This document shows, piece after piece, positions 22,560-35,680 of a stretch of DNA of 37,064 nucleotides. Within the stretch, counting starts at the first letter, position 1, and the number at the start of each line of letters is the position of its first letter. The position numbers and the translations under genes are program-made. This stretch comes from Paracoccaceae bacterium (GTDB lineage Bacteria; Pseudomonadota; Alphaproteobacteria; Rhodobacterales; Rhodobacteraceae): positions 1 through 37,064 of the forward strand of contig JAFIEO010000025.1 of the NCBI GenBank assembly GCA_020832445.1, given 5' to 3'. The notes under the pieces are model-generated. The model searched no databases, was not told the DNA's origin, and saw only the letters and a program-made list of their open reading frames with translations.

Positions 22560-22874
22560 CTAACAACTGGTGATCATCAGCGCCGGAAACAGGGTGAACG
22601 CCGTAGCCCCCAGCCCGATCCATGCACCCGCGCGCGGCATATATTGCGACAACGCAGGTCCGGCAGGCAGCGCGCGCAACAGCACCACATGACCCAGCAA
22701 CCCCAGCACACACACCGCAATCAGCCCCATGCGCGCGCCCGTGCCCAGCGTTTCGGGGGCCAGACTTTCCGCAGGTGGCTGACCCGCGCAGGCGACCCCG
22801 TGCAGCGCATAAACTGCGACGAAGACGACGGCCCACAGGGTCGGGCCAGCCAGTGACAGCGCAACCCACTTCAT
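22560..22874 (-). CDS. small membrane protein at the end of the oxidase operon
   Basis: A 104-residue protein with three membrane segments (about 4-27, 56-76 and 84-103). I do not recognise a family. The start at 22874 overlaps the stop of the fused oxidase subunit gene (ATGA), the same coupling used by the four genes before it, which suggests a part in the oxidase complex or its assembly. Confidence 0.6.
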   Translation of the reverse strand: MKWVALSLAGPTLWAVVFVAVYALHGVACAGQPPAESLAPETLGTGARMGLIAVCVLGLLGHVVLLRALPAGPALSQYMPRAGAWIGLGATAFTLFPALMITSC

Positions 22875-25429
22875 GCGACACCTGCCTGCACCACAAAAAC
22901 TGCCGCAGTGATTATGGCCGTAATCGCGGTAAAGGCCTGCCAGCTTGCCCATGCAGGGATCGCACCAACACCCGTGTGCGGCGAAATTTCGCCACGCCGG
23001 AACTGGTCGGCGGTGAACGCGGCCATCGCACCCGCCACCACCACATGCAGCCCGACATAGCCCGCCATGGCCGCACGCAGCGCATCACGCGCATGGGCGC
23101 GCGGGTCGTCCAGTTGCGTGACCAGCCATGCCAGCACGACAAGCGCCACAAGGTTGCACACCAACCCCGCCCATGACGCCCAGCGCCCTGCCCGCCCCCT
23201 GGTCAACAACCGCGCGGCACCTGCGCCCAACGCAAGTGCAGCGGCAATGCCCGCCAGACCAAGGGCCACTGAACTGTTTTGCACCAGTGCGGGCGGTGGC
23301 GGCGGCCCCTGGGTGACGACTGACAAAAACGCCAGCCCGAACAGCAGCGATGCAAACAACGCGCCATCCGCCACCAGAAGCGCATGCACCCCGCTTTGCG
23401 CCAGGGTCGGGCGCGTTGCGCGGTGATGCACCGGCACCGTTGTCCCCGGTGCAATCGTGACCGCGTGCAAATCCCCCAAGGGCGCCATGCCGCGCACCCA
23501 TATCCAGACCAGCACTGCAACCGGCAGCAACGCAACAGCCGCGATCGCATACAGGCTGGCCAGCATCAACAGCACAAACACCGCGATGGACCCCGCCAGC
23601 ACCAAAGGCAGCGCCGTGTTGCCCGGCAGCACCGCAACATGACAGGGCCGCGCAGCGCCCGCGCTGGTGACAAGCACTTCACGCCGCCCGCGCGGCGCAC
23701 CGGCCAGCGCACCGATCCCGCGCGCCAGCGCCTGAATGACATCGCGCGCAGGCCCGCCCTGATGGCGCACCAACGGAAGCGAGGCAAAATTGTAATTGGG
23801 TGACGGCACCGGCATCGCCCAGTCCAGCGTCGGCGCGCGCCACGGGTCGCGGCGCGCGCGTTTGCCAAGGCTGGCCTGCAAGATCAGATCCAGCGCAAAC
23901 ATGGCGAAACCGATGGTCAGCACGAACCCGAAGATCGACGATGTCAGATTCAGCGACATCCATTCGGGATTGTCGGGATACACATCAATCCGGCGCGGCA
24001 TGCCCAGCAGACCAGTCAGGTGCATGATGAAAAACGTGCCATGGAACCCCAGCAGAATGACCCAGAACGCGGCCTCTCCCAGCCCGTTGACACGTGCCTT
24101 GCCGGTGATCAGCGGCATCCAGTATGTGGCCGCCGCCATCATGGGAAACACAAACCCGCCGATCAGCACATAATGCAGATGCGCCGTCACAAAGGCCGTG
24201 TCATGCGCCTGCCAGTTGAAGGGGACGATGGCCAGCATCACCCCCGTCAGCCCCCCCATCACGAAGGTCAGGAAAAACCCCAGAATATGCAGCATCGGCA
24301 AATGCAGCTCTGGCCGCCCCTTCCACATGGTGCCGATCCACGCGAACACCTGCACCGCTGTGGGCACCGCCACCAGCACCGATGCGGCGGAAAAGAACGC
24401 CAGCGCCATATGCGGAATGCCCACCGTGAACATGTGGTGCACCCATAGTCCGAAGGACAGGAACACCAGCCCCAGAATGGCGGCCACAATCGCGCCATAG
24501 CCCAGAATGGGCGTGCGGCACATAACGGGAATGATGGTGGACATGGCCCCTGCCGCAGGCAGAAAGATGATATACACCTCCGGGTGGCCAAACAGCCAAA
24601 ACAGGTGTTGCCACAACAGCGGGTCCCCCCCGCGGGCCACATCGAAAAACGGCCAGTCAAAGGCGCGCTCCACCTCCAGCAGCACCGACCCCGCAATCAG
24701 TGGCGGAAACCCCACCAGCATCATCGCACTGGTGCCCAGCATATACCACGCAAACAGCGGCATTTCGGTCAGCTTCATCCCCGGTGCGCGTTGGCGCAGA
24801 ATGGTGACGGTAATTTCCACCGCCGCCGCGATGGCCGAAATTTCCACGAAGGTCACCCCCAGCAGCCAGACATCGGCATTTATGCCGGGGCTGTGCGTGG
24901 CATCGGACAGCGGCGTATACATGAACCAGCCGTCGCGCGGGGCCACACCGAACAAAAGCGCCGTCAGCATGATCAGCCCGCCAAACAGATAGCACCAATA
25001 CCCCAGCGCGGTCAGGCGCGGGAATGCCATATCGCGCGTGCCCAGCAGTTTCGGCAACAGCCAGATGCCCAACCCCTCCAGCATGGGAATGGCAAACAGG
25101 AACATCATGATGCTGCCATGCATGGTGAATATCTGGTTATACAGTTCTGTATCCAGAAACGCGCCCTGCGGGGTGGCAAGCTGCGCGCGGATCAGCATCG
25201 ACAAGATGCCGCCAATGGCAAAGAACACAAACGCCGTCGCCATAAAACGCAGGCCCAGCGTTGTGTGACTAACTGCCGTCACCTGCCCCCAAAACCCGCG
25301 ATCATTGGCCCAGACGCGCGCCAATTCGCGGTGCAACTGCAAGGCGCGTTGCGGCGGGTTGGCGCGAATATCTGCCGGTGCGGTGCCGTCAGACAGCGGG
25401 GGCGGGTTTGGGTTTGGGGCGTCGGTCAT
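22871..25429 (-). CDS. ctaD: cytochrome c oxidase, fused subunits I and III
   Basis: An 852-residue haem-copper oxidase core subunit fused to a subunit III domain. Residues 1-560 are subunit I: low-spin haem ligands H104 (FTMHGSIMMF) and H419, high-spin haem ligand H417 (TAHLHYVLIGG), copper-B ligands H282, H331 and H332 (GHPEVY, WVHHMF), the cross-linked tyrosine Y286 and the D-channel glutamate E284; D133 occupies the D-channel entrance. Where A1 oxidases carry the K-channel lysine (TGIKVFSW), this protein has TAVQVFAW, with Q360. Residues about 600-852 form a five-to-seven-helix subunit III-like part (TLAQSGVHALLVADGALFASLLFG). The enzyme should reduce oxygen with electrons delivered by subunit II. 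It overlaps both neighbours by 4 bp. Confidence 0.9.
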   Translation of the reverse strand: MTDAPNPNPPPLSDGTAPADIRANPPQRALQLHRELARVWANDRGFWGQVTAVSHTTLGLRFMATAFVFFAIGGILSMLIRAQLATPQGAFLDTELYNQIFTMHGSIMMFLFAIPMLEGLGIWLLPKLLGTRDMAFPRLTALGYWCYLFGGLIMLTALLFGVAPRDGWFMYTPLSDATHSPGINADVWLLGVTFVEISAIAAAVEITVTILRQRAPGMKLTEMPLFAWYMLGTSAMMLVGFPPLIAGSVLLEVERAFDWPFFDVARGGDPLLWQHLFWLFGHPEVYIIFLPAAGAMSTIIPVMCRTPILGYGAIVAAILGLVFLSFGLWVHHMFTVGIPHMALAFFSAASVLVAVPTAVQVFAWIGTMWKGRPELHLPMLHILGFFLTFVMGGLTGVMLAIVPFNWQAHDTAFVTAHLHYVLIGGFVFPMMAAATYWMPLITGKARVNGLGEAAFWVILLGFHGTFFIMHLTGLLGMPRRIDVYPDNPEWMSLNLTSSIFGFVLTIGFAMFALDLILQASLGKRARRDPWRAPTLDWAMPVPSPNYNFASLPLVRHQGGPARDVIQALARGIGALAGAPRGRREVLVTSAGAARPCHVAVLPGNTALPLVLAGSIAVFVLLMLASLYAIAAVALLPVAVLVWIWVRGMAPLGDLHAVTIAPGTTVPVHHRATRPTLAQSGVHALLVADGALFASLLFGLAFLSVVTQGPPPPPALVQNSSVALGLAGIAAALALGAGAARLLTRGRAGRWASWAGLVCNLVALVVLAWLVTQLDDPRAHARDALRAAMAGYVGLHVVVAGAMAAFTADQFRRGEISPHTGVGAIPAWASWQAFTAITAIITAAVFVVQAGVA

Positions 25430-26094
25430 GGCCTGTCCTGCGTCGCGTCGGGGTCGGCGGGGGGCCAGTCATCATGTGCGATCACCTCAAAGCGCATGGC
25501 CGCATGCCCCAGCCCGCAAAATTCTGCACACAGCCCGTCAAACCGGCCAGCACTGTCGGCCTGAACGCGCAGGCGGTTCACACGGCCGGGAATGGCATCA
25601 ATCTTGCCGCCAAGGCGCGGCACCCAGAACGAATGGATCACATCTTGTGACGTGATCAGAATATCCACCGGCTGGCCTGCGGGAATATGCAGCGTGCCTT
25701 CGCCTTCGACCAACTGGCCGCCGGCACCATCATGGGCGAATTCCCAGCCCCATTGAAACGCATGCGCGCGCACAGTCACTGCGCCATCGTCACGCGGCAA
25801 AATGCGTTCGCCCACCCACAACCCTGCGGCCAGAACCATGCTTAAAACCGCCAGCGAGAACCACAGGCCCAGACCAAATACCCAGCGTTTTTGTGTGGTT
25901 TCGCGGGGCCGCCCGAACGCGACCGCAAGCAGCACCAGCACAAAGACAGTGATCAGCCCCGCGCCTGCGAACATGCCCCACCACAGCCATGCAATATCGC
26001 GCGCGATATGCCCGCCGGGGTCCAGTGTGGACAGCGGCCCCGAACACCCGACCAACGCTACGGGCGCGGCCCATATCGCATACCGCACCGTCAT
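25426..26094 (-). CDS. coxB: cytochrome c oxidase subunit II
   Basis: A 222-residue subunit II that accepts electrons from cytochrome c through its binuclear copper A centre. The signal sequence ends in a lipobox-like VALVGC (C17), so it may be lipid-anchored. Two membrane helices follow (about 36-60 and 73-95), then a cupredoxin domain. All copper A ligands are visible: the histidine in DVIHSFWVP, and CAEFCGLGHAAM (two Cys, Glu, His, Met). VRAHAFQWGWEF is the aromatic electron-entry segment. No cytochrome c domain is attached, so it is not a caa3 fusion. Its start overlaps the CopD-like gene stop by 4 bp. Confidence 0.92.
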   Translation of the reverse strand: MTVRYAIWAAPVALVGCSGPLSTLDPGGHIARDIAWLWWGMFAGAGLITVFVLVLLAVAFGRPRETTQKRWVFGLGLWFSLAVLSMVLAAGLWVGERILPRDDGAVTVRAHAFQWGWEFAHDGAGGQLVEGEGTLHIPAGQPVDILITSQDVIHSFWVPRLGGKIDAIPGRVNRLRVQADSAGRFDGLCAEFCGLGHAAMRFEVIAHDDWPPADPDATQDRP

Positions 26095-26597
26095 AAGGGA
26101 TCAAGCCGCGCTGGAATGGTATGTCCGCGCGGCTCGCGCAGGAATTCGGGGAACAGCGCAATCAGATCATCCAGCGCGGGCTTGGCCAGCACCAGCCACA
26201 GCACCAGCCCCATCAGGGGAACCAGTATCACCAGCGCCAGCGCGGCAGGTGGCAGGCGGTAGGCATTGCGCCGCTCTCCCGCCAGCACGATCACATGCCC
26301 CAGCCATGCATGCACCACCACCATACCGGACACGGCAACCAGCTTGGCCAGCATCCAGATATCCAGCACTTCAAGGGCAAAAATCAGCACCGTTCCCGCA
26401 GAAATGGCAATAACCGCAGCGGGCGTCAGCACCAGCCTGTAGGCGTGATGCGTCAGCCAGCGGAATTCGGTGAAGCCTGCCTGATCGCGCGCGGCATAAT
26501 CACGCCTGTGCGTCTGGATGACGATCGGCAGCAAGATCAGCCCGGCGCACCAGACCGACAACGCGGCGATATGCAGCGCCTTGAGCAGGGCAATCAT
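26091..26597 (-). CDS. CopD-like/HemJ-like membrane protein of the oxidase operon
   Basis: A 168-residue protein with four membrane segments. LLKALHIAALSVWCAGLILLP near the start and FRWLTHHAYRLVLTPAAVIA place histidines within helices in the manner of CopD or UPF0093/HemJ-like proteins; ISAGTVLIF and WLGHVIVLAGERRN follow. It is likely needed for copper or haem supply or for assembly of the oxidase; this role is inferred from context. The start at 26597 overlaps the CtaG-like stop by 4 bp. Confidence 0.65.
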   Translation of the reverse strand: MIALLKALHIAALSVWCAGLILLPIVIQTHRRDYAARDQAGFTEFRWLTHHAYRLVLTPAAVIAISAGTVLIFALEVLDIWMLAKLVAVSGMVVVHAWLGHVIVLAGERRNAYRLPPAALALVILVPLMGLVLWLVLAKPALDDLIALFPEFLREPRGHTIPARLDPL

Positions 26598-27316
26598 GCG
26601 CGCGCCCCCTGCCACAGGGCCTGCCATATCATGATCGCGGCCAGAATGCCCAAGGGCACCATCCCCGGCACCCACATGATCAGGCCCGCCAGTTGCTGAT
26701 CTTCCAGCGCGCTGAACCCGAACCGCGGCGCATGGGCCAGATGTTCCATGTAAAACGCGCGGGGGGCGAAGGTCAGCAACGCGCCAAGCACCCCCATCTG
26801 GCCCACAAGTGACACCAGCCAGACCAGACCGGCAACATTATCACGCCGCTGCCCCAGAAGGGCCGACCAGAACATCCAGCCTGGCATGATCAATGCCAGC
26901 TGCAACCCCCAATAGACCGATGCACTGTCCCATGCAGCGCTATAGATCACCGGCAAATGCCACAGCCATAATGCGCCCGACAGCATAAGAAACACCAAAG
27001 CCTGCGGGCCGCGTCGCAACGGAAACGCCAGCGCAAGCGCCGGTGCCAACAGCACAATCACCACCAGATGATGCAGCGTGCGTGCGGAAAACAGCGCAAC
27101 CGTCATTGCACATAGCGGCGACACGAACGCCAGCACGGCTGCAAATATGGCAACCCCGAAGGCGCGCTTGCGCAGGACGCCCTGATCACGCAACTGCCAA
27201 AAGCCGCCTATGGCCAAAGCGCCAAGGCAGCCGATCAGCACGGGGTCAAGGTTCCACGCCGTGATCCATGCATGCGGGTCAGGCGCCGGTCCGCAATAGG
27301 GAAGGTCAGGTTTCAT
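26594..27316 (-). CDS. cytochrome c oxidase assembly protein, caa3-type CtaG family
   Basis: A 240-residue protein with about seven membrane helices, of the caa3_CtaG family (distinct from the Cox11-type CtaG). Recognisable parts are SPLCAMTVALFSARTLHHLV, the WLWHLPVIYSAA segment and EDQQLAGLIMWVPGM near the end. Members are needed for assembly of terminal oxidases, probably in copper delivery. The start at 27316 follows GGAG. It is the first gene of the oxidase operon; an EcfG-type promoter lies about 35 bp upstream. Confidence 0.85.
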   Translation of the reverse strand: MKPDLPYCGPAPDPHAWITAWNLDPVLIGCLGALAIGGFWQLRDQGVLRKRAFGVAIFAAVLAFVSPLCAMTVALFSARTLHHLVVIVLLAPALALAFPLRRGPQALVFLMLSGALWLWHLPVIYSAAWDSASVYWGLQLALIMPGWMFWSALLGQRRDNVAGLVWLVSLVGQMGVLGALLTFAPRAFYMEHLAHAPRFGFSALEDQQLAGLIMWVPGMVPLGILAAIMIWQALWQGARA

Positions 27317-27348
27317 CACACTCCAGTGTTGACCATGTCTTGTGATCC

Positions 27349-27374
27349 AACGCAGCGCGGGGCGTCGCGGTTCC
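27349..27374 (-). promoter_or_regulatory. EcfG-type promoter for the oxidase operon
   Basis: Minus strand GGAAC, 17-bp spacer, CGTT. The predicted transcription start is about 26 nt before the CtaG-like ATG. Exact consensus. Confidence 0.75.
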
Positions 27375-27381
27375 GCCAAAA

Positions 27382-27481
27382 GCAAGTTCAGAAAAAGCTG
27401 ACAGACTTTTTCGGGTCGAAATTACGACAAATCAGAAACTTAGTGTCTATCTGGCGATTCAACGAAAAGCCGGAACACTTT
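27382..27481 (+). repeat. dispersed intergenic repeat, copy B
   Basis: About 100 bp matching 19115-19210 in the same orientation. The first 49 bp differ at about 8 positions; the hairpin GAAAAAG...CTTTTTC and the block TCTGGCGATTCA are kept. The middle has small insertions. The two copies flank the AI-2E and oxidase genes as direct repeats about 8.2 kb apart. Confidence 0.7.
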
Positions 27482-27499
27482 GACCGCGCACGACATGAC

Positions 27500-27526
27500 A
27501 AGGGCGCGGCAAATGCACGCGCCCTT
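27500..27526 (-). terminator. hairpin behind the 25-residue peptide gene
   Basis: AAGGGCGCG and CGCGCCCTT form a 9-bp stem with a 9-nt loop about 25 bp after the small gene's stop. It lacks a T run, so it may be a weak terminator or a stabilising stem. Confidence 0.35.
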
Positions 27527-27549
27527 GGTCACCAGATTAATGGGTGCGA

Positions 27550-27627
27550 TCAGAACACACCGAACAGAAACAACAGAATAATCAACGGAATCGGAACGCC
27601 GATCGCCCACAATAATATTCCACGCAT
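27550..27627 (-). CDS. 25-residue membrane peptide
   Basis: A tiny gene that reads MRGILLWAIGVPIP, then LIILLFLFGVF and TGA. Nearly the whole peptide is one hydrophobic helix with a proline kink. Supporting evidence is strong for its size: an AAAGGAAG ribosome-binding site 6-8 bp before the ATG, an exact EcfG-type promoter ending about 50 bp before the ATG, and a hairpin after the stop. Similar MRGILLW-type peptides are, as far as I recall, annotated as hypothetical proteins in other proteobacteria. Function unknown; likely inserted in the inner membrane under stress. Confidence 0.65.
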   Translation of the reverse strand: MRGILLWAIGVPIPLIILLFLFGVF

Positions 27628-27676
27628 CTTATCTTCCTTTCGCTGTCAAAACAGGTTTCATTTGCGTCGTGTACAT

Positions 27677-27701
27677 AACGGGCAAGACTTCCCAAGGTTC
27701 C
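27677..27701 (-). promoter_or_regulatory. EcfG-type promoter for the 25-residue peptide
   Basis: Minus strand GGAAC, 16-bp spacer, CGTT, exact consensus; predicted leader about 45 nt. Confidence 0.8.
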
Positions 27702-27732
27702 GAAATACTTTCTCAAATCATTGATAAAAAAC

Positions 27733-27761
27733 AAAAAGCCCCGCCGGAAACCGGCGGGGCT
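27733..27761 (-). terminator. rho-independent terminator of the PRC-barrel gene
   Basis: On the minus strand AGCCCCGCCGG, TTT loop, CCGGCGGGGCT (11-bp stem), followed by TTTT-G-TTTTTT. A strong terminator about 43 bp after the PRC-barrel stop codon. Confidence 0.92.
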
Positions 27762-27803
27762 GCTTGGTATGTTCACAGGGAGGTTTCCCTGACCGATATC
27801 GGA

Positions 27804-28736
27804 TTACCCTTCGTATTCAGGCAGGCTTTCCAGTTGTTCTTGCGTCATCGAAACGTCAACACGCACGTCGCCATCGGCGTCACTCCACAGGATGTCGACG
27901 TCACCGACTTCAAGGGCGATGGTGTGGCTTCCAAGGCCAAGAAACCCGCCCACATCAATGACAAGATGGGTCATGGTGCCATCATCGGCCATAACAACGT
28001 CATCGACCGTGGCGATATTGTCGCCTTCGCCACCATAGACATCAGCACCCAGCAGGTTTTCAGCGGTGCGGTCTTGCTCGGGCATTTCGCTGTAGCCGTC
28101 CATCGCGGGGGTCGCGGACTGTTCGGTCATGGCATCGCCTTGCCCTTGCATGCCCGTATTCTGACCGGCGGACGCATCATCATAGACCTGCGCTTCATAG
28201 CCGATTGTCAGTTGCTCTTCGTCCCATTCCGGCAGGGCTTCAAGCTGGTCCTGGCTCATGGCGGCCACGACAAAGAAATCGGACAGGTCTTCTGGTGCGG
28301 TCTCATCGGCCACGAAATACAGATCGCTGATATCAACCATCACAGTGCGTGCGCCCAGACCCAGGAAACCACCGACATCAATCAAGACGCCGCGAACTTC
28401 GCCGTCCTTGGTCATGACAATGTCCTGAATATCGCCGACATTTTCCCATGTGTCGCGTTCGGACACAAAGGCATCACTGCTTTCCCAGCGCATGCTGGTA
28501 CGATCCCATGCACTGGTATCTTCGGCAGCGCGGTCCTGTGTCAGGGTGCGGGTTTGTTCGGTGTCCAGCGTGTACAGGTTCTTGCCGGTAAAATCAGATG
28601 ACAGGAATGCCGGAATGAACTGGCCGGACTCTGTCATGGCGGCTGCGTCACCATTCATTGTGGTGTCGCTTGTCTGTGCAACTGCCCCCATCGAGGTTAC
28701 AGCAACAATGGCGGTGGTAAGCATAAGCTTGTTCAT
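27804..28736 (-). CDS. exported tandem PRC-barrel protein
   Basis: A 310-residue protein with a Sec signal peptide (MNKLMLTTAIVAVTSMGAVA, cleaved near AVA-QT) and two PRC-barrel domains. Each carries the same core: VGDIQDIVMTKDGEVRGVLI then DVGGFLGLGARTV (about 100-135), and TVDDVVMADDGTMTHLVI then DVGGFLGLGSHTI (about 245-275). A Gln/Met-rich, acidic linker joins them. PRC-barrels are small beta-barrels found in RNA-processing and photosynthetic proteins; periplasmic tandem forms are common in Alphaproteobacteria with unknown function. TAGGAGAG precedes the ATG at 28736. A near-consensus EcfG-type promoter lies upstream and a strong terminator downstream, so it is a single-gene unit. Confidence 0.85.
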   Translation of the reverse strand: MNKLMLTTAIVAVTSMGAVAQTSDTTMNGDAAAMTESGQFIPAFLSSDFTGKNLYTLDTEQTRTLTQDRAAEDTSAWDRTSMRWESSDAFVSERDTWENVGDIQDIVMTKDGEVRGVLIDVGGFLGLGARTVMVDISDLYFVADETAPEDLSDFFVVAAMSQDQLEALPEWDEEQLTIGYEAQVYDDASAGQNTGMQGQGDAMTEQSATPAMDGYSEMPEQDRTAENLLGADVYGGEGDNIATVDDVVMADDGTMTHLVIDVGGFLGLGSHTIALEVGDVDILWSDADGDVRVDVSMTQEQLESLPEYEG

Positions 28737-28786
28737 ACTATTCTCTCCTAAGTTGTATCTGGCCTTCTCAAAGGCTCTGCACATAC

Positions 28787-28811
28787 AACAGCCCGTTGGC
28801 AGCAAAGTTCC
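28787..28811 (-). promoter_or_regulatory. near-consensus EcfG-type promoter for the PRC-barrel gene
   Basis: Minus strand GGAAC, 16-bp spacer, TGTT (one mismatch to CGTT). Position relative to the start codon is like that of the exact sites. An AT-rich stretch lies just upstream. Confidence 0.6.
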
Positions 28812-28934
28812 AATTTTTCTAAAAAATAATAATTATAACAATATCTTATCAAAAATAACGCAAAACAACACCAAGCCAGCTATGGCCTGATGCGATCTGC
28901 AAAATAATTATGGATACCGGGCGCTTGGGTTGTG

Positions 28935-29156
28935 TCAGCGCCGTTCGCGCGAGCGTTCGCGCGCAGGTTTGTCACCCACATCGTCCAAGGCGCCTGACGG
29001 TGCCTGATCAAGATGCTCAATCGGGTGCATACCCAGATCCGCAGTCTGGTCCGTAGGGTATGGCTGGGTTTTATCTGCCCCTTCGGCCTTCAGCTTGTGT
29101 GCTTTCTTGGTATAGTCTTGCTGGGTCTTGTTCGGGGTATTTTCAGGTGTGCTCAT
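28935..29156 (-). CDS. 73-residue hydrophilic protein of unknown function
   Basis: A 73-residue protein with no recognised family. It is hydrophilic and probably disordered: MSTPENTPNKTQQDYTKKAH, then KLKAEGADKTQPYPTDQTAD, a short LGMHPIEHLDQAPSGAL stretch and an arginine-rich end (RERSRERR). I chose the second of two adjacent ATGs (29156; the other is 29159) because AAAGGG is better spaced. An exact EcfG-type promoter with 17-bp spacer lies upstream. Possibly a stress-protective or regulatory small protein; that is inference from context only. Confidence 0.65.
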   Translation of the reverse strand: MSTPENTPNKTQQDYTKKAHKLKAEGADKTQPYPTDQTADLGMHPIEHLDQAPSGALDDVGDKPARERSRERR

Positions 29157-29198
29157 CATCCGCCCTTTCAAGGTCGTATTGCGTGGCATTCATGTAAA

Positions 29199-29224
29199 AA
29201 CGTCTGCCAGCATGAAACGGTTCC
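29199..29224 (-). promoter_or_regulatory. EcfG-type promoter for the 73-residue protein
   Basis: Minus strand GGAAC, 17-bp spacer, CGTT; predicted leader about 35 nt. Confidence 0.75.
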
Positions 29225-29262
29225 TGCCAGGGCGCACATATCGGCGACATTGCGCCCGCAGT

Positions 29263-29290
29263 AAAAAAAACGCTGGCCCGAAGGCCAGCG
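29263..29290 (-). terminator. rho-independent terminator of the PLDc_N gene
   Basis: Minus strand CGCTGGCC, TTCG loop, GGCCAGCG, followed by eight T. A compact and very strong terminator with the stable UUCG tetraloop. Confidence 0.95.
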
Positions 29291-29335
29291 CAAGGTATGC
29301 CGATTGGGCGTCACCATTCGACACGAGGGAAAGTT

Positions 29336-29518
29336 TCAGCCTTTCTTGGGACCGGCGATGAACCAGATGATCAGGCCGACAACGGGAAACAGCAGAACAA
29401 GCAATATCCACAAGACCTTTTGTCCCTGACTGGACCCTGACCCCAAGATCGACACAGCCGCCCAGATGACCAGCGCCAGATGGATAATACCCAGAAAACC
29501 TGTGAAATTCGCATTCAT
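29336..29518 (-). CDS. PLDc_N domain membrane protein
   Basis: A 60-residue protein with two membrane helices (about 6-24 and 33-54) of the phospholipase D nuclease N-terminal family: VLWILLVLLFPVVGLIIWFI followed by AGPKKG. Members are short integral membrane proteins, sometimes fused to other domains, of unknown biochemical role. Two ATGs (29527 and 29518) are in frame; the second fits the GAAGAGG site far better. It has its own exact EcfG-type promoter and a strong terminator, so it is a single-gene stress unit. Confidence 0.82.
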   Translation of the reverse strand: MNANFTGFLGIIHLALVIWAAVSILGSGSSQGQKVLWILLVLLFPVVGLIIWFIAGPKKG

Positions 29519-29555
29519 AGAATTCATGCCTCTTCAGTTAAACCATCTGACACCA

Positions 29556-29580
29556 AACGCGTTCATGTGCATTCGGTTCC
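29556..29580 (-). promoter_or_regulatory. EcfG-type promoter for the PLDc_N gene
   Basis: Minus strand GGAAC, 16-bp spacer, CGTT; predicted leader about 30 nt. Confidence 0.8.
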
Positions 29581-29601
29581 GCAAAAACATCAGGTTACAG
29601 C

Positions 29602-29694
29602 TTACCCCATGACAGCCTGTGCCAACCAGCCTGCAAGGGCGACAGCCAGCGCAATCATCGACAGTGCAAAGATAAGGGCAAGTTTCGGGCGCAT
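29602..29694 (-). CDS. putative 30-residue membrane peptide
   Basis: A short frame reading MRPKLALIFALSMIALAVAL, then AGWLAQAVMG and TAA. It has a basic start and a single helix, like many real small membrane proteins. It begins 4 bp after the stop codon of the ferric-reductase-like gene, so translation could be coupled, but there is no visible ribosome-binding site. A chance frame cannot be excluded. Confidence 0.4.
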   Translation of the reverse strand: MRPKLALIFALSMIALAVALAGWLAQAVMG

Positions 29695-29698
29695 GATG

Positions 29699-31099
29699 TC
29701 AGACCAGTTCAAAAATTTCATAATCGATATGGCGGTCCCGAACCCCAAGCCGGTTCAGATCACCGCGCAAGGACGCAATCATCGGGGCAGGACCACATAA
29801 AAGATGCGGCCAGTCGCGCGTGTCAGCCGCAAGATGGCGTGTCAGAATGTCGAAATCAATCTGGCCCTGCTCGCCCTCCCAATCGTCAGGCGGGTCGTCC
29901 AGAACATGCACCAGCGTCAGGTTCAGCCGCTTGCGCAAAACGTCCAGTTCATCGCGAAACGCCATATTGTCCCATGTGGGGTTCCCATAGATCAAGATGA
30001 TCGGGCGCGGGTCGTTGCGCGCATCCAGCGCATGCAGATTTGACAGGATTGGGGTAATGCCCACCCCGCCGGCAATCATGACAAACCCCTGCGCCCCCGC
30101 CATCCGGTCCACGGAAAACGCGCCATATGGTCCATCCACATAGGCACGCGCGCCGATTTCAGTTTGCGCCAGTTCAGTGCTGTGATCCCCCAGCGCCTTG
30201 ATTGCAAAAGACAGGTTCGGCCCCTTTTCAGGCGCGGTGGAAATGGTGAACGGGTGCTCAATCATGCCATAAGGGGACCGGTCGATTTTCAGCCATGCGA
30301 ATTGTCCCGGTTTCCAGCGTGTCAGGGCGCGGCCTTCGGGGGCAAGTTCCAACCGGCGCACGCCGCCGCCTTCATCATGATTGGCCACAACGCGCCACGG
30401 GTTGCGCGATTGCATCCATGGACGGATCAGCCGTGTAAACACCAACAGCCCGACCCAGCCCAGCGTTGCGCCAAGCCACAATGCACGCTTTTCGGCAGTA
30501 TCCGTCAGGTTACCCACGCCCAGAACATGCGCAATCGCGGCCACAAACCCCGTGATCGCCAGCGCCAGATGCAGCTTGCGCCACCATTCATAGGACAGCC
30601 CCAGCAGCTTGCGCCATTGCGATGTGACAACAAGGCCCGCAAAACACAGCAGCGACACGCGGCCTGCGGTCAACTCCCACCGCGCCTGAAGCGGGTTCAA
30701 CTCGCCAAGTGCAGGTTGATGAAAGACATAGAGCACCGCAAAATGCGCCCCCATCAACGCCAGCGCGCCCCAGCTAAGGTAACGGTGTGTCAGATAGACA
30801 ATATCGGCCCCGAACGGATGCGTAATCCAGCGCAGCCGCCCCGTCAGCGCGAACTGCAAGGTAATCATCGCCAGCGCGCCAAACCCCAGCCCCATGCTGA
30901 AATCCCATGTCAGGCCACCGGATGGCACGGCCTCGCCCACGAAGACGATCACTGCAAACGGCACACCCAGCGCCAGCAAGCCCAGTGCCAGCACCGCACC
31001 GGCATGGGCGATGACAACCAGACGCCGGTCATGACGCGGCTGATACCGGCGCGCAACGGTGGTGCTTGCGCCGCCGGTTCGTGGGGAAATTCTGTTCAT
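29699..31099 (-). CDS. ferric-reductase-like transmembrane flavoprotein
   Basis: A 466-residue protein with an N-terminal membrane part of about six helices (ferric reductase-like domain, haem-binding histidines plausible in LTHRYLSW, GAHFAVLYVFH and KLHLALAITGFVAAIAH), and a C-terminal ferredoxin-NADP reductase-like part (about 235-466). HPFTIST is the FAD-binding motif, GGVGITPIL the nicotinamide-nucleotide site, and YEIFELV the terminal segment. It would pass electrons from NAD(P)H through FAD and haem across the membrane to a metal or oxygen. I chose ATG 31099: an in-frame GTG at 31117 would fall inside an exact EcfG-type promoter whose predicted start site is at 31101 or so, implying a leaderless or nearly leaderless mRNA. 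Confidence 0.85.
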   Translation of the reverse strand: MNRISPRTGGASTTVARRYQPRHDRRLVVIAHAGAVLALGLLALGVPFAVIVFVGEAVPSGGLTWDFSMGLGFGALAMITLQFALTGRLRWITHPFGADIVYLTHRYLSWGALALMGAHFAVLYVFHQPALGELNPLQARWELTAGRVSLLCFAGLVVTSQWRKLLGLSYEWWRKLHLALAITGFVAAIAHVLGVGNLTDTAEKRALWLGATLGWVGLLVFTRLIRPWMQSRNPWRVVANHDEGGGVRRLELAPEGRALTRWKPGQFAWLKIDRSPYGMIEHPFTISTAPEKGPNLSFAIKALGDHSTELAQTEIGARAYVDGPYGAFSVDRMAGAQGFVMIAGGVGITPILSNLHALDARNDPRPIILIYGNPTWDNMAFRDELDVLRKRLNLTLVHVLDDPPDDWEGEQGQIDFDILTRHLAADTRDWPHLLCGPAPMIASLRGDLNRLGVRDRHIDYEIFELV

Positions 31100-31107
31100 C
31101 CTTGTCC

Positions 31108-31133
31108 AACGTGGCACCAGCCGTGCCGGTTCC
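31108..31133 (-). promoter_or_regulatory. EcfG-type promoter for the ferric-reductase-like gene
   Basis: Minus strand GGAAC, 17-bp spacer, CGTT, in the 47-bp gap after the DUF2231 gene. The -10 box ends only 8 bp before the ATG at 31099. Confidence 0.7.
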
Positions 31134-31146
31134 CTGTGCTGTGAAA

Positions 31147-31656
31147 TCAGGATGGGTCTTCAGGCATTTTTGTGCCGATCTGATAATCAAACACCAGCTT
31201 GCCCCCATGCCAGCCTGTGATCGCGGTCAATCCCGCCGCCACGGCCGACAGGCACAACCCCAGTGGCAGAACGGCTTCTTCAGGCTGACCAATGCGAAAG
31301 GCCCAATTCGCCCCGATCAGCGACAGCAGCATGACCGCCAGAACAAAATGCGTCCAGCTTGCCGAACGGTTGCGGATACCACGCACGACAAGCAATTCCA
31401 CCGTGCCGGTAATTCCGGCAATGACGCCCATCAAAAACGCGCCGAATGCCGCCCAGCCTGCAACCCGTGTCCAGAACGCGTCGGCAGTCCACCAATACAG
31501 CAGGTCTGCGCCCAGCAAAGACATTGTAAGGGCGATGGGAAACGCAACCAGCATTGCATGCAAAGGGTGGCCAGCAATCGCAATGCGCGATTCCGTTGCC
31601 AACAGGGCGCGGTGTTCTTCGACCGGATCGGTGAAGCGGGAATTCTTCGGGGCCAT
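31147..31656 (-). CDS. DUF2231 family membrane protein
   Basis: A 169-residue protein with four membrane helices. GHPLHAMLVAFPIALTMSLL (about 29-48) is the family's opening signature and ITGWHGGKLVFDYQIG its closing one. DUF2231 members are often found with redox or haem proteins; a haem-binding role through the GHPLH histidines has been suggested, unproven here. AGGAAAG precedes the ATG. It lies directly upstream of the ferric-reductase-like gene and may be co-transcribed with it, which fits a redox partnership. No EcfG-type box is seen before it. Confidence 0.85.
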   Translation of the reverse strand: MAPKNSRFTDPVEEHRALLATESRIAIAGHPLHAMLVAFPIALTMSLLGADLLYWWTADAFWTRVAGWAAFGAFLMGVIAGITGTVELLVVRGIRNRSASWTHFVLAVMLLSLIGANWAFRIGQPEEAVLPLGLCLSAVAAGLTAITGWHGGKLVFDYQIGTKMPEDPS

Positions 31657-31751: not shown

Positions 31752-33479
31752 TCAGGGCAACGCCGCGGTCTGCGGTGCCTGTTCGGCGACACGCAGACAA
31801 ACCTGCCAGCCGTCGCATCCGTTCCGCACGCTGGGGCCTATTTCTATATCGCCGTGAATCTGAAGCGCGAAAGCGGTCATCAACTCCCGTCCCAGCCCAT
31901 CGCCCGGCAATTGCTCCAGCGGTTCCGACACGGAATTCCACACGCTAAGTTCGGCAAACCCGCCCTTGCTGCGCAGGCTGATATCCAGCTGGCTGGTCCC
32001 GCCCTGCGGGCCGGACGCATATTTCAACGCGTTGGTCAGTGCTTCGGCAAATAACAATGATGCCGGAATGATCTTGTCATGGGCCAGATCCACTGACTCA
32101 AACTGTTTCGTCACGGTCAGATCAGCCGCGTCCGCTTTTGCCAGCGACAGTGTCTCTTGCAAAATACTGTCAAAGAAACTGGCCGCATAGCGTTCGGCAA
32201 TGCGGTCTTGTTCGTAAAGCGTGCGGTGAATAGTGGCCAGCGACCGGACACGCGCCTGAACACCTTGCAAGATCTGGCGTGCATCGGGATCGTGCAGGCG
32301 GCGCATCTGCAAATTCAGGATAGACCCGATAAGCTGTAGGTTGTTTTTCACTCGGTGGTGAATTTCCTTCAGCAGAATGGTCTTTTCTGCAAGCGCTTCT
32401 TCGCGCTCGCGTTCGTCACGGCGGATCAGCAACGCCATTTTGGAAAAGGTTGAATCGATTTCGCGCAGTTCAGTCGGTGCCTCATCGGGCAGGCGCTGAA
32501 ATTCTGCACGGTTGCCCAAAGCAAAACGCCGCAACTGCGAATTCAGCCGCTTCAAGTGGCGTACAACCATGTAATCAACCGCAAACATCACCACGGCCAA
32601 TGATGCAAACCACATCAGGACAGGAAAGCTTAACCGCCACAGGTTCATCGCAGCCGCAAACGGCAATTGATCACTGGACCAGCTTCCCAAGGCATAAAGC
32701 TGGCCGGGAATAACCTCTGCTATGGTGAATGTGCGGCTTTCGCCGTTCTCGCTGATGCCGCGCAAGACACCGTTGCGCACATCCAGCAAGGAATTCAGCG
32801 TCCCGCCATCAGGCAGCATATCCACGGAATCGGCATTGTCCGCACTGGTCAGTGTGTCGCCTGATGCATTGACCAGATATGTCATGCGCAGCCCGGTCTG
32901 CTGGTCCGGTTCTGTGCCAATCAAGGTGAATGTATGCCGCGAAATCGAGATGCTGACATATCCCACAAAATCGCCATCATCATAAACCGGCCTGTTGGCC
33001 AGCACGACGGGCCGCCCCGTGATCGCCCCTGATGGCTGAAAACTGAAAAAGCTGCGCGGGTTTTCCATATCCGCCTGCAAGGTCGGGGAATCTCTGAAAT
33101 CCACTTCGTCGCCCTGCGATACACAGCGCATTACACCGTCACGCGCAATGAAACCTGCGAAAGCATACAGACCGGTCGCATCGACAAATTCCCGCAAAAA
33201 CCCTGAACACGCCGCAGTATCATCCAGACGGTCCAGCAACAGCGGCGTCAACCGGTGCGCTGACAACATTGCACTTTCCAGCAACCCGCGTTGTCCCGCA
33301 ACCGCATCGGCAGTGCGCGAAACAAGCATCGCATCATCCGACCGCGCCTGTTCGCGCAGCGACTGATATTCGGAATAGATGGAAATCGCCCCCAAAGGGG
33401 CAAGCGCCAGCGTCATCAGAATTGCCAGACGGGTCGCCAACTTGTCATTGAACTCGAACACTGCCAATGCTTGTTTCAA
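31752..33479 (-). CDS. membrane sensor histidine kinase (HisKA_2/HWE-like), candidate PhyR kinase
   Basis: A 575-residue sensor kinase. Two membrane helices (about 15-37 and 283-304) enclose a 245-residue periplasmic sensor region, probably a double-Cache-like fold (for example VYDDGDFVGYVSISISR). A HAMP-like linker leads to the dimerisation box KEIHHRVKNNLQLIGSILNL, with the phosphoacceptor at H374/H375, then a HATPase domain (FAEALTNALKYA; GDGLGRELM). Kinases of this HisKA_2/HWE type are the usual activators of PhyR in the general stress response. The start is a TTG at 33479, 13 bp after the ecfG stop; AAGG abuts it, so the exact start is uncertain. Operon context nepR-ecfG-kinase supports a role in PhyR phosphorylation. 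Confidence 0.88.
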   Translation of the reverse strand: MKQALAVFEFNDKLATRLAILMTLALAPLGAISIYSEYQSLREQARSDDAMLVSRTADAVAGQRGLLESAMLSAHRLTPLLLDRLDDTAACSGFLREFVDATGLYAFAGFIARDGVMRCVSQGDEVDFRDSPTLQADMENPRSFFSFQPSGAITGRPVVLANRPVYDDGDFVGYVSISISRHTFTLIGTEPDQQTGLRMTYLVNASGDTLTSADNADSVDMLPDGGTLNSLLDVRNGVLRGISENGESRTFTIAEVIPGQLYALGSWSSDQLPFAAAMNLWRLSFPVLMWFASLAVVMFAVDYMVVRHLKRLNSQLRRFALGNRAEFQRLPDEAPTELREIDSTFSKMALLIRRDEREREEALAEKTILLKEIHHRVKNNLQLIGSILNLQMRRLHDPDARQILQGVQARVRSLATIHRTLYEQDRIAERYAASFFDSILQETLSLAKADAADLTVTKQFESVDLAHDKIIPASLLFAEALTNALKYASGPQGGTSQLDISLRSKGGFAELSVWNSVSEPLEQLPGDGLGRELMTAFALQIHGDIEIGPSVRNGCDGWQVCLRVAEQAPQTAALP

Positions 33480-33492
33480 CCTTGTTGAGTTA

Positions 33493-34068
33493 TCAAAATC
33501 CGTTGGGTGCGCCAGCCATCACCATCGCAACAGATTTATCTGTTGAATCAGGAAGTTCACCTTTTTCAAGATGCAGAATTTCCACCAATGCCTTGCGCGC
33601 ACGGTTGGCGCGGCTTTTTATCGTGCCGGGGGCGCAACCACAGGTTTGCGCGGCTTCCTCGATGGAAAACCCCATGGCACCGACAAGAATAAGCGCCTCT
33701 CGCTGCTCGACCGGCAGAAGTTTCATCGCGGCGTTCAACTCTTGCAGGGCAAGGCGGCCGTCATGGTCGGGCTTGGACGCCATACGCGCGGCGAACACCC
33801 CTTCCCCATCGGACACTTCACGCGATTGCTTGCGGCGTTTTGACAAATAGGTGTTGCGCAAAATCGTGAACAGCCAGGCACGCAGGTTCGTGCCCTCGTT
33901 ATATTGTGAAAATTTGCTCCATGCCTTTAGCACAGTTTCCTGCACCAAATCATCCGCGCCCGACACGTCCCCTGTCAGGCCACGCGCGAAGGCGCGCAGG
34001 GCTGGCAAATGGGTGACAATTTCATCGCGCGGATCCGTAAATTGCTGGTTCTCCGGGGTATCGCTCAT
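33493..34068 (-). CDS. ecfG: general-stress ECF sigma factor EcfG
   Basis: A 191-residue extracytoplasmic-function sigma factor of the EcfG type, which directs RNA polymerase to general-stress promoters. Region 2 covers about residues 20-90 (DDLVQETVLKAWSKF; NLRAWLFTILRNTYLSKRRK) and region 4 about 115-165 (LPVEQREALILVGAMGFSIEEAA, then APGTIKSRANRARKAL). Its start overlaps the nepR stop by 4 bp, as is usual for this locus. The sigma factor is held inactive by NepR until phosphorylated PhyR captures NepR. Many matching promoters are found in the surrounding 18 kb. Confidence 0.93.
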   Translation of the reverse strand: MSDTPENQQFTDPRDEIVTHLPALRAFARGLTGDVSGADDLVQETVLKAWSKFSQYNEGTNLRAWLFTILRNTYLSKRRKQSREVSDGEGVFAARMASKPDHDGRLALQELNAAMKLLPVEQREALILVGAMGFSIEEAAQTCGCAPGTIKSRANRARKALVEILHLEKGELPDSTDKSVAMVMAGAPNGF

Positions 34069-34253
34069 TTTTCCCCCGCCTTCTTTTGCGCATCTTGTTG
34101 TCGAAGCGCGTCCAGAAGATCAGTCAGGGATTTTGGCAACTCCTCGGAAGCCGCGTCACTGTAAAGCCGCTTGAGGTTTTCATCAATCTGCTTGGAAACA
34201 GCCGGTGCGATGTCCTTTCTGTTTCCATTTCTTTTCCCACTCATAATCGACAT
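34065..34253 (-). CDS. nepR: anti-sigma factor NepR
   Basis: A 62-residue protein with the NepR core: QIDENLKRLYSDAASEELP followed by KSLTDLLDALRQQ, two helices that bind EcfG or, under stress, the sigma-like domain of PhyR. The flanks are short and charged. I chose ATG 34253 because AAAAGG is close upstream; ATG 34244 would remove three residues. It is the first gene of the nepR-ecfG-kinase unit and is transcribed from one face of the palindromic promoter at 34331-34368. Confidence 0.9.
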   Translation of the reverse strand: MSIMSGKRNGNRKDIAPAVSKQIDENLKRLYSDAASEELPKSLTDLLDALRQQDAQKKAGEK

Positions 34254-34330
34254 ACAGCCTTTTGCTCCACAAATTTCACTCTGGCAGCTTCCGATCTGCT
34301 GCGCAACCATCGCAGCAATCGTGACAACCT

Positions 34331-34368
34331 TTTGGAACCAAACGCCTTGCACTGCGTTTGGTTCCAAA
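34331..34368. promoter_or_regulatory. palindromic bidirectional EcfG-type promoter
   Basis: TTTGGAACCAAACGC (34331-34345) and GCGTTTGGTTCCAAA (34354-34368) are perfect 15-bp inverted arms around an 8-bp centre. Read rightward it gives GGAAC (34334), 16 bp, CGTT (34355) toward phyR; read leftward it gives GGAAC (34365), 16 bp, CGTT (34344) toward nepR. The -35 of each promoter overlaps the -10 region of the other. Leaders are about 80 nt on both sides. Both units would be autoregulated by EcfG and would compete for the same DNA. Confidence 0.88.
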
Positions 34369-34448
34369 GAATGTTTGTTTTTCATATGTGCCTGAAACGG
34401 GCCGAAAGTAGGGAAGTTCAAAGAATGCCGGAAGTTCAAGGAGAGAAC

Positions 34449-35243
34449 ATGTCTATGTCGATGCGTATTGCGAAGGAACTGCCCTATTTGCGCCGGTATG
34501 CGCGGGCACTGACGGGCAGCCAGCAAACCGGCGACAGATATGCCGCCGCCACATTGGAAGCCATACTTGAAGACAGATCCCTGCTTGATAACGAAATCGC
34601 GCCCAGACTGGCGCTGTTCCGGGCATTTCATACCGTGTGGCAGACAACCGGCGCGCCGGTCAGCGAAGAGGTCGGCACCGGAACCGAGGCCCGCGCACAA
34701 TCGCTGCTTGCCAGCCTGACCACCAACACACGAGAGGCGCTGTTGCTCCGCTCGCTTGAGGAATTTAACTACGCTGACATCGCGCAGGTCATTCAGGTCA
34801 CCGAGGATGAGGCCCGCGAACTGGTGTCGATTGCCTATACCGAAATGTCGCGTTCGGTGCAGGGACGCATCCAGATTATCGAAGACGAGCCGCTGATTGC
34901 GCTGGATATCAAAAGCATTGTCACCGAGATGGGCCATGACGTCACCGGGATCGCACGCACCCATAAAGAAGCAGTGGCACTGGGCCAGAAGACACGGCCT
35001 GACCTTATTCTGGCAGATATTCACCTTGCGGACGACTCCTCTGGTGTGGAAGCGGTCGCTGAACTGCTGCGCGACAACGCAGACATTCCGGTGATTTTCA
35101 TCACTGCCTATCCCGAACGCCTGCTGACCGGTGAAAAGCCGGAGCCTGCCTTCCTGATCACCAAACCGTTCGAGGAAGAACAGGTTCGCTCCGCAGTGTC
35201 GCAGGCAATGTTCTTTGCGTCTACGAAAACGCTGAACGCCTGA
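34449..35243 (+). CDS. phyR: anti-anti-sigma response regulator PhyR
   Basis: PhyR is the master switch of the general stress response: when phosphorylated, its sigma-like domain binds NepR and frees EcfG. The 264-residue protein has the sigma-like domain at about 1-135 (LPYLRRYARALTGSQQTGD; TREALLLRSLEEFNYADIA) and a receiver domain at about 140-260, with acidic pocket E145-D-E, phosphoacceptor D190 (LILADIHLAD), the FITAYPE threonine and the TKPF lysine. Length and domain order are exactly those of PhyR. AAGGAGAG precedes the ATG. It is divergent from nepR, sharing the palindromic promoter. Confidence 0.95.
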   Translation: MSMSMRIAKELPYLRRYARALTGSQQTGDRYAAATLEAILEDRSLLDNEIAPRLALFRAFHTVWQTTGAPVSEEVGTGTEARAQSLLASLTTNTREALLLRSLEEFNYADIAQVIQVTEDEARELVSIAYTEMSRSVQGRIQIIEDEPLIALDIKSIVTEMGHDVTGIARTHKEAVALGQKTRPDLILADIHLADDSSGVEAVAELLRDNADIPVIFITAYPERLLTGEKPEPAFLITKPFEEEQVRSAVSQAMFFASTKTLNA

Positions 35244-35432: not shown

Positions 35433-35457
35433 GGAACCAACAGCCCCGTCATCCGTT
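35433..35457 (+). promoter_or_regulatory. EcfG-type promoter for the DUF1328-DUF2383 pair
   Basis: GGAAC, 16-bp spacer, CGTT on the plus strand within an AT-rich stretch; predicted leader about 43 nt to the start at 35507. Confidence 0.82.
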
Positions 35458-35506
35458 TCATTTTCATATGCCGACATATCGGCGCTGAAAAATGAAAGGA
35501 AACACT

Positions 35507-35680
35507 ATGCTAGGCTGGGCACTTACTTTTCTTATCGTCGCGCTGATTGCAGCAGCACTTGGTTTCACCGGCATCGCAGGTGCAGCATCGTCGATTGCAC
35601 AGATCCTTTTCGTAATTTTCCTGATCCTTTTCGTCGTTGCCATGATCGCTCGTGCTGTTCGTGGACGCCCTCCGTTGTAA
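35507..35680 (+). CDS. DUF1328 family small membrane protein
   Basis: A 57-residue protein with two membrane helices (about 3-25 and 34-50), matching the DUF1328/UPF0391 (YtjA-like) family: [20 protein letters not shown] then [29 protein letters not shown] precedes the ATG. The function is unknown; homologues are commonly stress-induced. An EcfG-type promoter upstream drives it together with the DUF2383 gene 31 bp downstream. Confidence 0.9.

Follow-up and report, generated by a model that had tools for sequence, protein, structure and literature searches.

A single 32-bp site between the divergent nepR and phyR genes of a Rhodobacteraceae bacterium holds two complete EcfG promoters that run in opposite directions and are interlocked with each other, and of the 113 divergent nepR/phyR loci scanned in the family, 99 have such interlocked antiparallel promoters. 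This element is probably a bidirectional EcfG promoter, in which two complete promoters would be served by one holoenzyme at a time. The site lies in a stretch of 37,064 nucleotides, hereafter called the window, which is an entire contig (G000:C85). Around it, the layout of the general stress response partner switch is recognised by Pfam domains and open reading frames (Table 1): phyR diverges from nepR-ecfG, and a kinase gene of the HWE/HisKA2 type is located close by. The closest named relative of the PhyR protein, at 91%, comes from Roseinatronobacter sp. HJB301, near-identical records possibly being excluded from this comparison.

The divergent, EcfG-driven locus as such is already known. 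The nepR-ecfG and phyR units are usually divergent and both EcfG-dependent (PMC4814048, PMC8103513), and it was suggested that this co-regulation preserves stoichiometry (PMC4814048). The window resembles the canonical alphaproteobacterial EcfG/PhyR/NepR locus in the divergence of nepR-ecfG and phyR, in its EcfG-type promoters and in the nearby kinase; it differs in that its two promoters share one 32-bp site, whereas the available sections of those two accounts (PMC4814048, PMC8103513) do not mention promoter overlap. The consensus GGAAC-N16-17-C/GGTT was used to predict EcfG promoters at two stress-response loci of Rubellimicrobium thermophilum (PMC12148442), and the available part of that account mentions no overlap of promoters either. 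Titles and abstract openings contained no account of palindromic, overlapping, bidirectional or back-to-back phyR/nepR promoters, and PMC4167512, PMC9648850 and PMC5964349, judged by their relevant passages, are not about interlocked phyR/nepR promoters. Within the literature searched, the interlock is without description; absence from print is not claimed.

Table 1. Switch genes, promoters and inverted repeat of the window (positions in nucleotides)
Feature	Position	Strand	Remarks
HWE/HisKA_2 sensor kinase	31752..33479	-	PF07568, PF07536; downstream of ecfG
ecfG, ECF sigma factor	33493..34068	-	Pfam PF04542, PF08281; 4-bp overlap with nepR
nepR, anti-sigma factor	34065..34253	-	Pfam PF18557, E 7.5e-11
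Inverted repeat, perfect	34331..34368	.	15-bp arms 34331-34345 TTTGGAACCAAACGC and 34354-34368 GCGTTTGGTTCCAAA; 8-nt centre 34346-34353
EcfG promoter toward phyR	34334..34358	+	-35 GGAAC 34334-34338, N16, -10 CGTT 34355-34358; exact match
EcfG promoter toward nepR-ecfG-kinase	34341..34365	-	-35 34361-34365, -10 34341-34344; exact match
phyR, anti-anti-sigma response regulator	34449..35243	+	Pfam PF22029, PF22233, PF00072
One-way EcfG site	35433..35457	+	Precedes DUF1328 gene (ORF 35492-35680, PF07043); no interlocked partner; could serve as internal control

A preliminary description, made from the sequence alone, had reported perfect 15-bp arms around an 8-bp centre, a complete GGAAC-N16-CGTT promoter on each strand, each -35 box adjoining the opposite -10 box, and a position between nepR and phyR. 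All of this held: the arms are 100% complementary, the EcfG (ECF15) consensus GGAAC-N16/17-C/GGTT is satisfied exactly on both strands, the opposing -10 and -35 boxes lie 2 bp apart on either side of the element, and the neighbouring genes agree by Pfam. The observation is real and goes beyond chance. Save for the 8-bp core, the two promoters are identical over a stretch that begins three bases ahead of the -35 box and ends ten bases beyond the -10 box, and because of this near-identity they are predicted to be of near-equal strength. With the distance from -10 to +1 assumed to be 7-9 nt, the phyR transcript is predicted to start at about 34365-34367 on the plus strand, at or just past the opposing -35 box, and the nepR-ecfG-kinase transcript at about 34332-34334 on the minus strand; at 8 nt, the two starts would be 33-34 bp apart. 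A promoter scan of positions 34200-34520 found no E. coli-type sigma-70 promoter.

The window contains 13 perfect EcfG sites, and only two of them, the phyR/nepR pair, are interlocked, so interlocking is a feature of this pair and not of EcfG promoters in general. As a side observation, 12 of the 70 GGAAC-N16/17-CGTT matches in the organism's own genome fall in this 37-kb contig (window 1-37064), which makes up 0.9% of the genome, while the genome-wide total of 70 is below the 227 matches of the same pattern read backwards as a control. This contig has the look of a stress-response island whose own regulon surrounds the switch genes. EcfG-type sites are also present at 27349, 27677, 29199, 29556 and 31108, within a region (22874-31656) that encodes a cytochrome oxidase cluster (COX1, COX2, CtaG), a PRC-barrel protein, a ferric-reductase-like oxidoreductase and a DUF2231 protein; judged by these sites, it is possibly a respiratory module under stress control. 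The end of the contig falls within a DDE transposase gene (PF13546, 36579-37064), which is likely to have caused the assembly break.

Conservation was examined in a sample of 248 Rhodobacteraceae genomes, in which a PhyR threshold of E 1e-30 gave 120 PhyR places in 112 genomes. The distribution of PhyR is thus patchy (112/248), and at the same threshold the protein was not found in G179, the one further member of the window's genus among the 248 genomes. Seven of the 120 places were dropped, five without divergent nepR/ecfG (L052, L094, L243, L255, L256) and two at a contig end (L254, L258), leaving 113 scannable divergent loci in groups of 99 (window included), 11 and 3; for G114, the half of the locus on another contig (L257) was used in place of the truncated PhyR place. 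When each promoter was allowed a single mismatch at most, an interlocked EcfG pair was present in 90/99, 8/11 and 1/3 of these loci, nearly all from separate genera, and both promoters are perfect in 52 of the 90. In dinucleotide-shuffled gaps (50 rounds), the interlock arose on average in 0.04 of the 99 loci, with a maximum of one. NepR went undetected in nine of the 99 loci, where divergence was marked by ecfG, and seven of these nine interlock.

Specificity for the locus was examined by a genome-wide scan for the strict composite GGAAC-NN-AACG-N9-11-CGTT-NN-GTTCC. It occurs in 38 of the 248 genomes, once in each, and all 38 sites map to the phyR 5' end (by coordinate comparison, with G114, G022, G054 and G015 read directly); read backwards, the same composite occurs in none of the 248. 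Since loci were selected on box matches, the information in the box columns, which is near-maximal, is inflated, and it is the shuffles and this genome-wide pattern scan that provide independent evidence.

Among 37 named loci, 33 were scanned (L166-L197 and L198) and four weak matches (L199-L202) were left out. The interlock is present in 30 of the 32 Rhodobacterales-type loci (L166-L197), many of which are metagenome bins and one of which, from Neomegalonema, may belong to another family; the locus scan found none in Rhizorhabdus (L198). The phyR/nepR/ecfG locus also occurs on plasmid-named records of Roseicitreum, Dinoroseobacter, Ketogulonicigenium and Roseobacter litoralis (L203, L204, L205, L209), and three of these four plasmid-borne loci interlock (Dinoroseobacter shibae, Ketogulonicigenium and Roseicitreum), the one of Roseobacter litoralis being without the pair. 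At one mismatch, 14 of the 113 family loci (about 12%) have no interlock. Among the nine of these that belong to the group of 99, L062, L074 and L101 interlock once two mismatches are allowed, L022, L087, L104 and L105 have minus-strand sites only, L096 shows an offset-2 overlap, and L071 has nothing. These 14 loci, together with that of Roseobacter litoralis, indicate that the interlock is not essential.

Outside the family, other layouts prevail. PhyR reached the threshold in 64 of 385 genomes of a class-wide sample, at 74 places, of which 60 were scanned (58 non-family, 2 family) and ten more were scanned in addition (one of just 135 bases); G000, G055 and G075 had already been sampled, and the partial G484 was left out. 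No promoter pair was found within the limits set in 26 of the 58 non-family loci. The commonest paired layout consists of -35 boxes that face each other at 6-10 bp (12 loci: L106, L107, L108, L112, L117, L124, L129, L130, L131, L133, L137, L165), followed by an offset-2 overlap (8), wider facing pairs (7) and something else (2). The interlock occurs in three of the 58, twice in family f42 and once in f149; a further f42 interlock at L156, where the program picked another pair, stands outside this count. All three fall among the 32 non-family loci with divergent nepR/ecfG (3/32) and none among the other 26, which may include other gene orders or a too-divergent NepR. The ten further non-family loci contained no interlock, and neither did the named loci of Sinorhizobium meliloti pSymB (rsiA1/rsiB1) and Methylobacterium bullatum (L206, L208), whose facing -35 boxes are 5 bp and 9 bp apart, respectively. 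Facing promoters thus resemble the interlocked ones in gene pair, consensus and narrow spacing, but differ in that their -35 boxes face each other, their -10 boxes point outward and their core boxes do not overlap. Taken at the level of sequence, several families appear to serve phyR and nepR by a pair of EcfG promoters held to a narrow geometry, which in Rhodobacteraceae is the interlocked one.

Several other candidate patterns were set aside. The strict composite was found in just two of the 385 class-wide genomes, the window's own and G450; this apparent rarity reflects a sample with only five Rhodobacteraceae genomes, the window's own included. The G450 composite (L003:1501-1532), from another family, is located upstream of an ORF that by eye resembles a receiver domain, and on its opposite side the ORF list of G450 has no gene that starts divergently. 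The offset-2 'superposed' overlap, which at one mismatch is seen at three other sites of the window, is largely a by-product, as GGAACC reversed reads GGTT, a valid -10 box. One exact match in viral contigs (L005) has phage-family ORFs next to it that lie on one strand; by estimate, a single hit among that many contigs is compatible with chance, and it was dropped.

The -35 element is read as a duplex by domain 4 of ECF sigma factors, and domain 2 opens the -10 element. The EcfG holoenzyme would bind the element in either orientation, yielding phyR mRNA rightward or nepR-ecfG(-kinase) mRNA leftward. As the predicted starts are at or just past the opposite -35 box, the open bubble would reach that box, and the two promoters are not expected to be occupied at once; whichever of them holds an open complex, the opposite -35 would be melted or covered, which allows only one orientation at a time. 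Mutual exclusion of two polymerases is thus expected from geometry, and activity in both directions we infer from conservation. Under stress, freed EcfG would act at this one site and induce the two arms of the partner switch at the same time. The output ratio of the arms would follow the relative strength of the two orientations, about 1:1 by sequence in the window (where differences are confined to the 8-bp core and the transcribed flanks), and the summed output would be capped at the capacity of one promoter.

This behaviour was explored by a minimal kinetic calculation. When the affinities are set to 1 and 3, rising holoenzyme moves the output ratio of independent promoters from 3:1 to 1:1, whereas exclusive promoters stay at 3:1, with the total capped at one promoter. 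In simulations, initiation counts in the two directions correlated at -0.09 to -0.35 for exclusive promoters, compared with 0.01 to 0.03 for independent ones. Lower noise did not emerge from these simulations: of three settings, exclusion gave a higher per-direction Fano factor in two (0.82 vs 0.54 and 0.94 vs 0.76) and a lower one in the third (0.88 vs 0.96). At low occupancy, the exclusive and independent designs are nearly alike in output and differ only near saturation. High occupancy is plausible for EcfG promoters with consensus boxes under full stress. It is also plausible, and sound in kinetic terms, that competition fixes the stoichiometry of the partner switch, as the preliminary description had proposed, and we hypothesise that selection keeps an output ratio that would be independent of holoenzyme; that interpretation is partly supported.

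The nearest known parallel is provided by bidirectional sigma-70 promoters of E. coli, in which a short near-symmetric sequence likewise gives rise to divergent RNAs (Warman et al. 2026, PMC12825309). In those promoters, opposing polymerases cannot bind together (PMC12825309); in the window, exclusion is expected from geometry. The E. coli promoters share a symmetric -10 element, with starts most often 18, and also 10 or 23, bp apart (PMC12825309). In the interlocked loci, by contrast, the -10 boxes are separate in 90 of 90, lie 10-11 bp apart and stand each beside the opposite -35, and the starts are predicted to be separated by about 33-34 bp; the sigma factor is of the ECF type and is encoded at the locus itself. 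Basal activity was too low for competition in five E. coli bidirectional promoters tested (PMC12825309), which speaks against a role of competition; the near-equivalence of the two designs at low occupancy in our calculation agrees with this. Competition can occur there when one direction is strongly activated, and interference between the two directions was associated with less cell-to-cell variation (PMC12825309).

The strongest alternative accepts both promoters and denies that their competition was selected. Two EcfG promoters would simply be needed at this locus, and their overlap would be a frozen accident of a single ancestral origin, followed by lock-in; such an account leaves the promoter reading intact and is at odds with competition as a selected function. 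It could well be correct, though we stop short of calling it probable. The high frequency in the family (99/113), against mostly other layouts elsewhere, fits one origin with lock-in, and the nearly equal output of exclusive and independent promoters at low occupancy points the same way. Moving one promoter would damage the other, so an interlock, once formed, could not drift apart. Against this stands the pattern of change among the 90 interlocked loci: spacers (16 or 17) and the gaps from box to adjacent box (1-3) occur in six different combinations, yet the distance between the -10 boxes stayed at 10 bp (44 loci) or 11 bp (46 loci) throughout. In addition, the interlocks in f42 and f149 could be separate origins. 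By an estimate based on protein alignment, 49 to 198 nt separate the two gene starts, and nine of the ten loci among the 99 with gaps above 140 nt still interlock, so compaction does not force the overlap. The interlock may be conserved through lock-in, neither promoter being movable without breaking the other, and competition may be either a selected function or the harmless result of an old locked-in arrangement.

It is improbable that just one direction is a real promoter and the other match incidental. At one mismatch, L074 and L101 show the plus side only and L022, L087, L104 and L105 the minus side only, as such a reading would have it. Across the interlocked loci, however, the two sides are about equally kept: mismatches fall in 20 and 24 of 90 loci, and the promoter is perfect in 70/90 toward phyR and in 66/90 toward nepR. 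This evenness, together with the count of 99/113, bears out the claim of the preliminary description that two opposing EcfG promoters occupy one site. Both units are, moreover, EcfG-controlled in Alphaproteobacteria (PMC4814048, PMC8103513).

The element is conserved in its geometry and not in its palindrome. The preliminary description had suggested comparing the symmetry among relatives and had proposed that a dimeric protein could use the extended arms or that a cruciform may form. A regulator operator or cruciform laid over the promoters would fit the perfect 15-bp arms, the single-strand DNA fold of the window repeat (z -6.4) and three inner columns (+5, +7, +8), in which the two halves agree above shuffled partners (z 2.6-3.1). 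When the boxes are used as anchors, however, the 15-bp arms of the window are the longest among the 90 interlocked loci, whose median is 7 bp. In the closest named relatives (L166 and others), both promoters are kept and the perfect symmetry is broken; what relatives share is the promoter arrangement. Half-to-half agreement in 14 flank columns is about that of shuffled partners (z -0.8 to 2.0, the outermost column being highest), and the capacity to fold, which four relatives show as well (z -3.2 to -5.1), arises as a by-product wherever boxes are opposed. We attribute the inner-column excess, short of proof, to relatedness and 1-bp register shifts, for which the shuffle does not control. An operator or cruciform is very improbable on these grounds, and the perfect palindrome is read as incidental, a likely by-product of two interlocked promoters plus a few extra matches. 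The family loci also share a T-rich triplet upstream of each -35 box (-14 to -12 from it), inside the early transcribed region of the opposite promoter, which is possibly an upstream contact element.

An intrinsic terminator-type hairpin is hardly credible: a scan picks out a stem at 34330-34369 with T-rich sequence after it on the plus strand (0.5 expected in shuffles), but between two divergent genes there is no transcript of a gene to be ended, and the full arms are not common to the relatives compared. The operator or cruciform and the terminator were rejected, as was the idea that the gap hides an E. coli-type sigma-70 promoter.

The partner switch poses a question of design, namely how a sigma factor, its anti-sigma factor and the anti-anti-sigma factor are kept in proportion while the sigma factor induces all three. 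A conserved promoter that works in two directions from one site would be a concrete and cheaply testable mechanism for such proportion, with natural controls at hand in the 14 of 113 family loci without the interlock and in other families with a different layout. It would also extend bidirectional promoters to ECF sigma factors, in a geometry unlike that of the sigma-70 cases (PMC12825309). The broader proposal, which is tentative and which we would not call likely, is that promoter geometry is a working part of the alphaproteobacterial partner switch and that its two branches in Rhodobacteraceae are mutually exclusive event by event. If this is true, the ratio of PhyR to NepR-EcfG would be independent of free EcfG, the two branches would anticorrelate, and other orders would have met the same problem by facing -35 boxes.
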